Origin: Pyrococcus kukulkanii
GTDB lineage: Archaea > Methanobacteriota_B > Thermococci > Thermococcales > Thermococcaceae
Direction: 5' to 3'
NCBI RefSeq assembly: GCF_041647995.1
Contig: NZ_JARRIB010000003.1
Coordinates: 62,001-126,000 of the forward strand
Length of the DNA: 64,000 bases
Of this stretch, positions 35,604 to 60,466 are shown one piece after another. The notes below the pieces were generated by a model. The model searched no databases. It saw only the letters and a program-made list of their open reading frames with translations, and was not told where the DNA came from. How positions within the stretch are numbered: position 1 is the first letter of the stretch; each line of letters starts with the position of its first letter. A program made the translations under genes and the position numbers.

Positions 35604-35614
<11 letters not shown>

Positions 35615-36782
35615 TTCTATCCCTCCACAAAAGGGGAGCATTTACCAAAATTATTGAGACAACTGGAAGGGAAGCTATAATAGGGAACACTCCACTGTAC
35701 CCCTTAAGCTGAGCGACGTAGCCTAATACAACTTGACCTGAAAGCGTCCCTAAGTCAAAGAACATCGTGTATATACTTGATCCCATGGTTCTTATCTTTT
35801 GAGGCAACCTAGCCAATGCCATGACCTGGAGGGCTGGAAGCGAAAGCCCGAAGCCTAGTCCAGACACAACCGCAGGAACATAGGAATAGGGAGGAAACTT
35901 AAACTTGAGCAGGAAGAGATACCCCAGGAAGATCATGAAGATCCCAAACCTCGCAACGGGGATTGGCCCCATTCTATCAGCGCTCTTACCTCCAACTAAC
36001 CTCGTGAGAAATGAAGAGAAGCCCATCAGCATCATGTAGATACCAAACACGCCCTGGCCTAAACCTGAAACCTTGTATAAAGCCGGTAAGAAAGTGACTA
36101 CGCCAGAGTAAGCCATTGAGATAAAGAAGAGCGCAAGAGAAGCTGAAATGAAGAAGGGCTTCAAGAGTTCCCTATAACTCGCGTGCTCCTCATACTTCTC
36201 TGCCTGAATCTCCTTTATCTCTCTCCACACTGAGAGCACAAAAAGTGCACCAAGCACGGAGAACGCAATAGTCAAAGCGAAGGCAAAGGTAAAGCCAAAT
36301 TTATCTGAGACGAATCCTCCAATAGCAGGTCCCACGATGTTTCCGAGAGAGAACATCATGCCCCTCCATCCAAGTGCCTCTCCTATCCTCCCCCCAGGTG
36401 CCAAGTCCACAGCCGACGACAGGGAGGAGGGGAAGAAAATGCCCATGGCAAAACCATGGATTGCTCTCCCCAAGGCAAAAATCATTATACTCCCAGAAAG
36501 ACCCGAGAAGATGTACAAAAGCCCAGCTACAATGCCAAGGATATTGCCAAGGAACATCGCATGAAACCTGTAGCCTTTATCCCCAACGTAGCCACCAAAC
36601 AGCTTTGAGATGAGGGAGACACCGCTCGCAACACCAGCAACCACTCCAACGACGAACGGCTGGGCCCCTAAGGTTATCGCATAGGGAGAGATTAGAGGAT
36701 TAAGGAGACTTATCCCCAGAAAAAAGAAGAACGTCGATAAGTTAAGAAACCAGAGATGTTTGAAACTTCCACTCACACTCAC
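35604..36782 (-). CDS. Major facilitator superfamily transporter
   Basis: 392 aa with 12 predicted helices; the MFS loop 2-3 signature is GGYVGDKGYRFHAM and the helix 5-type motif GNIVGPAIGGFVSDKFG. Drug or metabolite efflux type; substrate unknown. Starts with GTG (36780-36782) overlapping the asparaginase stop, with GGAGGCTGGTG ahead, and runs 11 bp into the radical SAM gene, so asparaginase, MFS and radical SAM genes form one transcription unit. Confidence 0.88.
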
Positions 36783-37699
36783 TAAACACCAGCCTCCGGC
36801 TCTTTCATGCCCTCCTTCATGTAGGCATAGCTCATGTGCTTAGTGTTCTTGGCAAACCCCACATTGCCCTGGGAGTCCACCATTATTATCCCCATTGTAT
36901 CCTTGCCGAAGTACTTGGTTGCAAGACTTATCGCGGCATCACTCGCTGCCTGAGCGTCCATCCCTAAGCGTACAAAGTCGGTGGCCGTCTTGGCTAGAAC
37001 TAGCCTTATCGCAACCTCCCCAAATCCTGTGCATGAAGCTCCGGCAACTTCATTTGCATAGGTTCCAGCGCCGATTATTGGCGTATCCCCAACCCTTCCG
37101 AACATCTTCAGGAATACTCCTCCTGTCGAAGTTCCGGCTACAACTTCCTCACCGTCAAAGGCTACAGCTCCAACTGTGCTCCTCAACACCTCGGGGTACT
37201 CCTTTATGAGCTCTCCAAGCTTCTTCCAGTGCCTGACTTCACCTTTTAGGAGCTTTTCTTTAAGCTCAGCCCACTGCTTCTTTCTTTCCTCCGTTACCGG
37301 ATCGTATTCAGGAAATCCCATCAGCCTCGCAAACTTAACTGCCCCCTCACCAACCAAGAGAACGTGATCGGTCTTCTCCATAACCTTCCTTGCCACGCTT
37401 ATCGGGTTCTTAATCCCCCATATGCCAGCGACGGCTCCAGCCTCAAGCGTCTTACCCCGCATTATGGCTGCATCCATCTCCACTTTTCCATCTATTGTGA
37501 GAGCACTCCCCGTTCCTGCGTTAAACAGAGGATTATCTTCGAGAACCTTCACGGCCTCTTCAACGGCATCCAAGGCAGAGCCCTTCTTTAATTCCCTCCA
37601 TCCTGCTAAAACAGCCTCCCTAACCCCCTCTATGACCTTGGGAATTCTGTCTTCCTTCCTTATAATACCTGCTCCTCCATGAACGATTATAGCAACCAT
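36782..37699 (-). CDS. Plant-type (Ntn) asparaginase / isoaspartyl peptidase
   Basis: 305-aa precursor cleaved to alpha and beta chains. The N terminus is MVAIIVHGGAG; the cleavage and catalytic threonine are in STVGAVAFDGEEVVAGTSTGG (Gly is replaced by Ser before the Thr), and the substrate loops GRVGDTPIIGAGTYA and TGFGEVAIR follow. It hydrolyses asparagine and isoaspartyl dipeptides, useful at high temperature where isoaspartate forms. The ATG at 37699 behind GGGGATAAAG fits the family start. Confidence 0.92.
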   Translation of the reverse strand: MVAIIVHGGAGIIRKEDRIPKVIEGVREAVLAGWRELKKGSALDAVEEAVKVLEDNPLFNAGTGSALTIDGKVEMDAAIMRGKTLEAGAVAGIWGIKNPISVARKVMEKTDHVLLVGEGAVKFARLMGFPEYDPVTEERKKQWAELKEKLLKGEVRHWKKLGELIKEYPEVLRSTVGAVAFDGEEVVAGTSTGGVFLKMFGRVGDTPIIGAGTYANEVAGASCTGFGEVAIRLVLAKTATDFVRLGMDAQAASDAAISLATKYFGKDTMGIIMVDSQGNVGFAKNTKHMSYAYMKEGMKEPEAGV

Positions 37700-57351: not shown

Positions 57352-57567
57352 ATGGTCATGAAGTTATCTAAACTCTACAAGAAGAAAATATACAACACGA
57401 AGGGTAAATACGTTGGAGAAGTTGATGAGATAATAATTGACATTGGAGAAAGATATGGTAAAGTCCTAATTTTAGCATTACCAGGAGAAAGAGTCGGTGT
57501 ACCATATGAGAGGGTTACAGCTGTGGGAGATATAATCCTTGTAGAGGCGGCAAATAAAAAAACCTAA
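57352..57567 (+). CDS. PRC-barrel domain protein
   Basis: 71-aa protein that is a single PRC-barrel: LYKKKIYNTKGKYVGEVDEI, ILALPGERVGVPYERVTAVGDIILVE. In archaea such small PRC-barrel proteins include CdpA/CdpB-type cell division factors and RNA-maturation accessories; I cannot say which this is. The ATG at 57352 behind GAGGTGACGAAA is chosen over 57322, and TATA ATTTTTAAAG (57308-57317) supports it. Convergent overlap of 4 bp with the TrmBL1 gene. Confidence 0.82.
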   Translation: MVMKLSKLYKKKIYNTKGKYVGEVDEIIIDIGERYGKVLILALPGERVGVPYERVTAVGDIILVEAANKKT

Positions 57568-58589
57568 TAGAGGAGAAAAATTTCTCCCTCGACGTCCTCT
57601 AAATAACTCCCAAGACCTCCTATCTTTAGTTTCTCCCCTTTCTCAGTTTCAATCGTTATATTTGCTGTCAGAGGTGTATATTCAAAGCCTATGATCCTTC
57701 CTTTTATTTTAACTTGGGTTTTATCTTTGAGGAATCTTCCAATAACCTCTATCTCTCTACCGACGCCGATACTCTTAAGTACGGTTATTACTGTCCTTAT
57801 ATGAGTCAGTACAACGGGTTTACTAAGTTTGTCATACTCAAGTCCCTTAATTTCTTTGCTATTATCAAAGTACATCGTATAAAACCAGTGGACATAGTTC
57901 TGAATTAGTTTCGCAGACTTCGCCCAGAAGGAATAAAATCTTTCCTTTCCTTTATTTTCTGGCAAAGTTCCAAAGAAAAGGGCATAGTTTACGTCTCCAA
58001 TTACCCAAGTACCCATAAGCCAAGGAGCCTCCCCACTTTTTGCCAATATCACATTTCCTTTTTCATTAAGCCACTTAGGGATACTTTCAAAATTACTTAC
58101 AATTATCATCAGAATGTCATCCCTCTTCTCTATAGCATCTCTCAGCTGTTTAAGGAATTCAAAGGGCGTGTTAATTAATATTTCATGCTTTGCACTCCTT
58201 ATTATGTATTCAGCTCTCTCAACAGTGTTCTCAAAACCATAAATTGTCCATATCTCCGGCAATTCTTCTCCATGGGTCTCCTTATATAGATATTCAAAAG
58301 CCTTCTTTAGGTTTTCAATATCCTCTATAAGCTCCTTTTTAAGCCTCTCCAAGACGAGTTCTGGATTCACCGGGGCATAAAGCCTAGGCGTGCCATGCAT
58401 GATGTCAACAAAACCCTTCTTTGATAGTGAGCTCAACACGTCGTAAATCCTTGTGTGAGGGATTCCACTCTCCCTTGTCACATCAGTAGCCTTGCTTGGC
58501 CCCAATTTGAGAAGTGTTATGTATGCTAAACTCTCATACTTAGTTAGGCCAAATTTTTGAAGCTTTTGAATTATATCTTCCTCTATCAT
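57564..58589 (-). CDS. trmBL1: TrmB-family sugar-responsive transcription regulator (TrmBL1-like)
   Basis: 341 aa. Winged helix-turn-helix at residues 5-70 (GLTKYESLAYITLLKLGPSKATDVTRESGIPHTRIYDVLSSL), coiled linker, and a C-terminal sugar-binding domain from about 110 (IYGFENTVERAEYII, LMGTWVIGDVNYALFFG). TrmBL1/Tgr in Thermococcales represses glycolytic and sugar-uptake genes and activates gluconeogenic ones through the TGM motif. GGGAGGTAGTGAG precedes the ATG. A TGM-like site lies in its own promoter. Confidence 0.9.
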   Translation of the reverse strand: MIEEDIIQKLQKFGLTKYESLAYITLLKLGPSKATDVTRESGIPHTRIYDVLSSLSKKGFVDIMHGTPRLYAPVNPELVLERLKKELIEDIENLKKAFEYLYKETHGEELPEIWTIYGFENTVERAEYIIRSAKHEILINTPFEFLKQLRDAIEKRDDILMIIVSNFESIPKWLNEKGNVILAKSGEAPWLMGTWVIGDVNYALFFGTLPENKGKERFYSFWAKSAKLIQNYVHWFYTMYFDNSKEIKGLEYDKLSKPVVLTHIRTVITVLKSIGVGREIEVIGRFLKDKTQVKIKGRIIGFEYTPLTANITIETEKGEKLKIGGLGSYLEDVEGEIFLLY

Positions 58590-58605
58590 CTCACTACCTC
58601 CCAGG

Positions 58606-58622
58606 TTTCATCCTTAGTGATA
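58606..58622 (-). promoter_or_regulatory. Candidate TGM operator at the trmBL1 start site
   Basis: Minus strand TATCAC-N5-ATGAAA; consensus TATCAC-N5-GTGATA has one perfect half-site and four of six in the other. The TATA (CCTTTATAGG, complement of 58638-58647) puts transcription start near 58617, inside this site, the position used for repression. Suggests autoregulation. Confidence 0.45.
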
Positions 58623-58689
58623 TATGGGATTATATGCCTATAAAGGTTTTAGCTATGTGAACTACTAAAGGGCAGTATGTTTCTTTGTG

Positions 58690-59078
58690 TGTCGTTGTGG
58701 GTGGCTCGTGGAGAGGTTGCTTACACTGAGGCAGGTGGCTGAAATTCTCAGCGTGAGCTTTATTACAACCAAGAGGTGGATTTACTCTGGCAGGAGAAAG
58801 GCAGTAAAGCTTCCAACGGGCAAGTGGAGGAAGATCATGAGGATACCAAACCTTGCAACGGAGATTGGCATCGGGATGTCCTCGCTGTTTGGAATTTGTG
58901 TTTTAAGGGATTATGAGAACTCTGCCCCGAGCCCTGGTGGTGTTTTCGTAGGTGGGAGCCCCGTGCCGTTGGGCTCGAGCGCCACCAGTGAAGCCACCTG
59001 GATTGAAAAATCCAGATGGCTAAGGTGGAACTCCCTACCGCCGATACACGATGAAGCGGTAGGGAGAAACGGTAATAA
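58690..59078 (+). mobile_element. IS607-derived miniature element (MITE) with omegaRNA-like end
   Basis: About 390 bp, non-autonomous. It holds the TnpA/TnpB relic and, after the tnpB stop (58916), three hairpins: CTGGTGG/CCACCAG (58934-58940 with 58982-58988, enclosing GAGCCC/GGGCTC at 58956-58961 and 58971-58976), AGCCA-C-CTGGATT/AATCCAG-A-TGGCT (58992-59021), and an 11-bp stem CTCCCTACCGC/GCGGTAGGGAG (59031-59041 with 59056-59066). These correspond in position to the omegaRNA of IS607 TnpB. IS607 elements lack terminal inverted repeats, so exact ends are estimated. Confidence 0.75.
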
Positions 59079-59085
59079 CCCTTAA
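58708..59085 (+). pseudogene. IS607-type chimeric fragment: TnpA HTH joined to TnpB tail region
   Basis: GTG at 58708 behind GGGTGGCTC opens ERLLTLRQVAEILSVSFITTKRWIYSGRRKAVKLPTGKWRKI, the MerR-like helix-turn-helix of an IS607 serine recombinase (TnpA). After about residue 45 the catalytic domain is missing. From 58854 to 58916, in another frame, CNGDWHRDVLAVWNLCFKGL-stop is the C-terminal end of TnpB. So an internal deletion joined the first 45 codons of tnpA to the last 20 of tnpB. The chimeric frame runs on to 59085 and could make a 125-aa protein with only the DNA-binding domain. Confidence 0.8.
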
Positions 59086-59108
59086 TAACAAACACGTGCG
59101 TGATAATC

Positions 59109-60466
<1,358 letters not shown>

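Follow-up and report, generated by a model that had tools for sequence, protein, structure and literature searches.

An IS607 deletion derivative with an omegaRNA-type right end in Pyrococcus kukulkanii

Results

The window, the whole stretch of 64,000 nucleotides analyzed here, covers positions 62001-126000 of contig C3 in genome G000 (2.05 Mb, 9 contigs). Between the gene of a TrmB-like regulator and a PRK04148-family gene that precedes ribose-1,5-bisphosphate isomerase, the window contains a remnant of an IS607 element of about 400 bp (58671-59072), which consists of a left end, 41 TnpA codons, the RuvC-III tail of TnpB and a right end (Table 1). An earlier note on this DNA had described an IS607 internal-deletion derivative, and this description is borne out by homology of the TnpA head and of the TnpB 3' end and right end, and by empty sites that reveal the insertion.

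The empty site is seen in two sister species (genomes G003 and G004), where both flanks join at one point (...ACTACTAAAG/TGATAAACC...; here and below, slashes within a site mark the joins). The junctions of the window copy read AAAG/GG/CAG ... GAAAC/GG/TAAT, compared to AAAG/TGATAA in the empty sites. IS607 elements use GG at insertion, and GG is found at this insertion without a longer target duplication, the exact ancestral dinucleotide being uncertain by 1-2 bases. A second genome of the same species, G061, carries the same element at the same site; the two alleles differ at 3 positions in 398 bp of the element and at 8 positions in about 2.2 kb outside it. Nothing in a phage collection matched the element, and the sole match in a plasmid collection was a TnpB gene on P. 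abyssi pGE2.

Table 1. Features of the IS607 remnant and its surroundings (window coordinates), and copies of family B elsewhere in G000 (contig coordinates).
Feature	Position	Strand	Basis or remark
Only consensus BRE/TATA in 58401-59300	58639-58650	-	Promoter of the divergent TrmB-like gene (57564-58589) and not of the element
GG core, left junction of the IS607 insertion	58671-58672	+	Empty-site alignment with G003/G004; intact left ends start GGCAG
Left-end remnant (CAGTATGTTTCTTTGTGTGTCGTTGTG...) without the CTTTATAA box and a 6-nt stretch of intact copies	58673-58707	+	Left-end alignment
Decayed first 41 codons of IS607 TnpA (HTH)	58708-58830	+	83% nt identity to the species' own IS607 copy (E=2e-41); HTH_17 score
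Filler at the deletion junction, about 4-bp overlap at each end	58828-58869	+	90% identical to 35926-35967 (E=1e-11)
TnpB 3' coding remnant (RuvC-III motif WHRDVLAVWNL) and ruined distal hairpin H1	58866-58950	+	Homology; structure model
OmegaRNA-like core	58951-59072	+	Model R1, 142.4 bits, E=1e-49; pair counts
H2	58956-58961/58971-58976	+	Complete in the window
Pseudoknot CCGTT/AACGG	58966-58970/59068-59072	+	
Outer helix around H3	58982-58986/59024-59028	+	
H3	58992-59004/59009-59021	+	One C-A mismatch
Terminal stem, 11 bp	59031-59041/59056-59066	+	Perfect
GG core, right junction	59071-59072	+	Empty-site alignment with G003/G004
Putative guide position, were the RNA made (TAATAACCCTTAATAA)	59073-59088	+	Element end; TnpB rule (PMC8612924)
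Family B copies in G000	C2:92004-92199 (-), C3:398488, C5:142235, C3:211071, C1:318512, C4:96945, C1:436363, C2:274405, C3:252787		

Full relatives are about 2 kb long and encode a TnpA with HTH_17 and Resolvase domains and a TnpB with a TNB domain. Full-length Thermococcales IS607 elements (e.g., G003:C1:1829414-1831373 and G001:C1:395579-397558) have the left end, TnpA HTH, TnpB RuvC-III motif, right-end structure and junction GG in common with the window copy, whereas the window copy has lost its promoter, the catalytic domain of the recombinase and most of TnpB. Only the HTH-encoding head of tnpA is kept and the catalytic domain is deleted; having no intact tnpA, the window element is an IS607 deletion derivative that is not autonomous. 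The retained head carries four private nonsynonymous and two private synonymous changes in its 41 codons, and its HTH_17 score is 20.1 bits (cut-off 27) compared to 44.3 bits in an intact TnpA. Its pairwise dN/dS values (0.06-0.16) are generally above those among intact copies (0.02-0.09). A 132-codon ORF is open from 58687 to 59085; its C-terminal half is out-of-register sequence over the RNA structure, and in the G061 allele the ORF is interrupted by a frameshift.

The TnpB 3' end and right end together are 80% identical to the species' own copy (E=8e-47), and the TnpB remnant starts at the RuvC-III motif (TGGCATCGG, 58866). The 42-bp filler between head and tail has its source elsewhere in the window, antisense within a transporter ORF (35607-36839, - strand), which points to templated repair of the internal deletion. 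We considered the 42-bp match at 35.9 kb as another IS607 copy and rejected this because the match lies inside the transporter ORF and accounts for the junction filler. The join of a TnpA head to a TnpB tail that the earlier note had recognized is present, but the extents given there (about 45 TnpA codons fused to the last 20 of TnpB) need revision, since 41 codons remain, the tail begins at RuvC-III and filler lies between them. An exact right-end pattern search of 94 family genomes returned no second copy of this junction, which is unique to the locus, with one copy per genome at one site in G000 and G061. In relatives the TnpB reading frame extends across the right end and stops in the terminal-hairpin loop; in the window this frame is broken. 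In the TnpB of this subfamily (L035, 1092-2360), the zinc-ribbon region (CPIH...C) is unusual and the omegaRNA region encodes a C-terminal extension.

Left-end alignment showed that the BRE/TATA box is gone with about 12 nt of the window element's left end, which is about 18 nt shorter overall than the left ends of intact copies. Using the BRE/TATA consensus of PMC3124441, we found no + strand match across 58401-59300; matches were found in the left ends of the intact copies covered by the scan, namely the species' own and those of G003 and G001, and in a mini-element, mini-copy A, described below. The promoter test is imperfect, as the copy at C2:92k of another mini-element family, family B, also misses the strict consensus (it reads CCTTTATTA). 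Phok et al. report no expression from those members of the P. abyssi sRkB/C repeat set that are without BRE/TATA (PMC3124441).

A structure model of the right end, R1, was built on nine relatives, eight whose tnpB 3' end belongs to a complete or nearly complete gene and the partial copy in G006, and the window and the G061 allele were left out. The R1 fold has six helices, in which 97.7% of cells are paired and seven pairs have changed on both sides among the nine relatives; in slid-partner controls, pairing dropped to 37-50%. These data show that a conserved, covarying omegaRNA-type fold spans the tnpB 3' end and the right end in the relatives. With R1 the window scored 142 bits, the nine training copies 197-237 bits, mini-copy A 191.5 bits and the G061 allele 127 bits. 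The window score upholds the omegaRNA-type structure that had been proposed for the right end, and the proposal that this end is intact holds for the terminal stem and H2 but not for H3, with its mismatch, or for the distal hairpin H1, whose 5' arm was taken by an 8-nt deletion near 58908. By an alignment fitted to R1, the H1 outer helix of the window copy retains 11 of 14 pairs, mainly as G-U, and the hairpin nested within H1 retains two of five. The G061 allele has one H2 pair broken and one base of the outer helix around H3 deleted, placing two of its three differences from the window in conserved helices. Loss of H1 may be tolerated, because most P. abyssi sRk52 clones are without stem P0 (PMC3124441) and the 5' part of the ISDra2 omegaRNA can be trimmed (PMC10097598). 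Special conservation of the RNA core is unsupported: private changes are not significantly fewer in the core (5 of 122) than outside it (7 of 85; Fisher P=0.24), a comparison of small numbers with little power.

The element ends in AACGG, and these five bases can pair with CCGTT in the H2 loop. A-type copies, the P. abyssi sRk loci and an IS607 copy at C2:130 kb share this pairing. Of 14 family B copies, 8 pair through four bases and the others through three, with one compensatory case (CCAT/ATGG). The TnpB guide is the right flank of the transposon (PMC8612924), and in the ISDra2 omegaRNA a pseudoknot lies next to the guide (PMC10097598). The CCGTT/AACGG pairing matches this pseudoknot and, together with the element end, would place the start of a guide at 59073 and not at about 59067, as had been suggested. 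The ISDra2 TnpB omegaRNA, or reRNA, is like the window structure in that it overlaps the tnpB 3' end, ends at the transposon end with a guide from the flank, and forms a pseudoknot between an upstream loop and the bases bordering the guide (PMC8612924, PMC10097598). The likeness is one of anatomy; ISDra2 belongs to IS200/IS605 (Y1 transposase) and not to IS607, and the window locus is without TnpB in cis. An Rfam search gave nothing over the element or over family B.

The P. abyssi ncRNAs sRkB, sRkC and sRk48 were detected by Northern blot and end-mapped in 2011, when they were already likened to OrfB ends (Phok et al., PMC3124441). Their published coordinates and that of sRk52 fall on matching loci in G001 (L152-L155). 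R1 matched sRkB (35 bits), sRkC (32 bits) and sRk48 (29 bits); sRk52 is below the R1 threshold but has the pseudoknot and 83% identity to sRk48, and the right end of the IS607 copy at C2:130 kb matches both sRk48 and sRk52. All four have a promoter, a terminal stem, an AACGG end and a CCGTT pseudoknot partner. Similarly to the window, they are IS607/IS605 OrfB right-end RNAs without a protein gene. They differ in that their BRE/TATA promoters are present and the RNAs are expressed and processed, whereas the promoter of the window copy is lost (PMC3124441).

Other mini-elements occur in the genome. In mini-copy A (G000:C2:92209-92391, - strand, L043), a left end with TATA is fused directly to a TnpB tail and right end, without tnpA, and the copy lies head-to-tail with a copy of an element of about 175 bp. 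This shorter element, family B, has an IS607-like left end with a TATA-like box, a GC-rich structured part, a terminal stem and a GAACGG end. G000 contains nine near-full-length copies and three short or weak matches, and there are a few copies in G061, G003, G004, G019 and G025. Because MAFFT does not align the two terminal-stem classes correctly, the RNAalifold structure of family B is unreliable; we used the sequence, ends and pseudoknot instead. At one site (C5:142235-142412 in G000, C204:616-790 in G061) the two genomes have clearly different family B variants between closely similar flanks, the product of exchange or conversion between family B copies. The autonomous parent of family B was not found, and a search of genome contigs with its terminal-hairpin pattern gave three records, two of which are Thermococcales MAG loci without a full-length parent. 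The third, from a Desulfobacterales MAG, was set aside as a chance-looking match without element context.

Discussion

The anatomy of the locus records the following history. An IS607-family element, with a serine recombinase TnpA and a TnpB nuclease, inserted long ago between the TrmB-like and PRK04148-family genes, and an internal deletion, repaired with the templated filler, took most of tnpA and tnpB. Other small deletions took the element's promoter and the distal hairpin of the guide RNA. What is left is a structured omegaRNA scaffold core that abuts chromosomal DNA in the guide position, is without a promoter of its own and is diverging within the species.

We consider the element a promoterless, decaying IS607 remnant that most likely does nothing now. 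Promoter loss, decay of the HTH, a core whose private changes are not significantly fewer than those outside it, and the silence of P. abyssi loci lacking BRE/TATA together favor this reading, and the locus is probably neither transcribed nor functional. The earlier note had suggested that the element, through an RNA or a truncated HTH protein, would be a regulator or decoy rather than dead DNA; with the promoter consensus gone, one hairpin broken and the second allele more decayed, such a role is not supported for this locus. Evidence against the remnant reading is that the core of the window copy retains the pseudoknot and the majority of its pairs, that H1 may be dispensable, and that transcription from a host promoter for the downstream gene, if located upstream of the element, could run through it.

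Such read-through would be the starting point for a live, trans-acting omegaRNA locus, in which the RNA would be processed and loaded into the TnpB of a full-length sister copy and would direct it to the right-flank sequence, present as an empty allele or as the site left by excision. The persistence of the core structure and pseudoknot, the presence of full or partial sister copies in this genome and in the same-species genome, and the transcription and processing of similar TnpB-less P. abyssi repeats are consistent with this idea. We nevertheless regard it as unlikely, given the absence of a + strand promoter consensus, the loss of H1 and the greater damage in the second allele. In addition, the guide and the empty site of the two sister species do not match at several positions. 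The supply of nuclease is also doubtful: a genome search for full-length copies and identical right ends, which the earlier note had proposed, found longer copies in the species but no confirmed intact TnpB and no second copy of the junction. The TnpB genes of this subfamily run off contig ends in G000, where copies are cut at C1:1, at the end of C3, at C4:1 and at C6:1, and have a stop codon or frameshift in G061.

TnpB-less mini-elements and trans-acting omegaRNAs are known in other settings. PATEs, for example, are non-autonomous elements with transposon ends and possibly a guide RNA but without a nuclease gene. The window copy is of this general kind but is probably neither mobilized nor expressed. 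It could be a MITE that still moves in trans, with both of its ends recognized by the TnpA of full copies: it retains the two ends and their GG cores, the genome encodes a TnpA whose Resolvase domain is intact, and related mini-elements are multi-copy. We think this very improbable, as the element is single-copy, sits at one shared site in the two genomes of the species rather than at several, and has a shortened left end; a junction unique to the locus, without a second copy, argues that it has not spread as a mini-element. There is scarcely any likelihood that the 132-codon ORF, open as it is and with most HTH residues recognizable, yields a truncated HTH protein competing for the recombinase's site, as the decoy proposal had it, and we rejected this as the main reading on the private replacements and the sub-cut-off HTH_17 score, to which the out-of-register C-terminal half, the G061 frameshift and the absent promoter add.

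The remnant reading makes the window copy itself ordinary, and it is the class of such elements that deserves attention. Orphan Pyrococcus ncRNAs known since 2011 show the anatomy of TnpB guide RNAs in structure, pseudoknot and transposon-end position, and the genus holds multi-copy mini-elements that consist of little beyond a promoter-like left end and such an RNA. On this comparison, the trans-guide idea would have more merit at the sRk RNAs, mini-copy A and family B than at the window locus. We tentatively suggest, as a possibility that falls somewhat short of an even chance, a Pyrococcus class of IS607-derived mini-elements that combine a left-end promoter with an omegaRNA scaffold, gain a new guide at each insertion site and depend on nucleases encoded elsewhere. 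The sRk RNAs, mini-copy A and the nine-copy family would be its live members, and the window copy would be dead or expressed by read-through. If such RNAs load into TnpB in trans, a genome could hold many guides for each nuclease, each insertion setting a new one.

Two further loci were observed in the course of the analysis. A relative of the family B RNA, with its own TATA-like box and similar flanks, is nearly unchanged in two species of another genus (L105 in G019 and L106 in G025; L149) and is perhaps a settled ncRNA gene. At about 467.0-467.1 kb of G000:C1, the Rfam HgcC RNA (111 bits; L009 472-596, - strand) lies upstream of, and opposite to, a TnpB gene.
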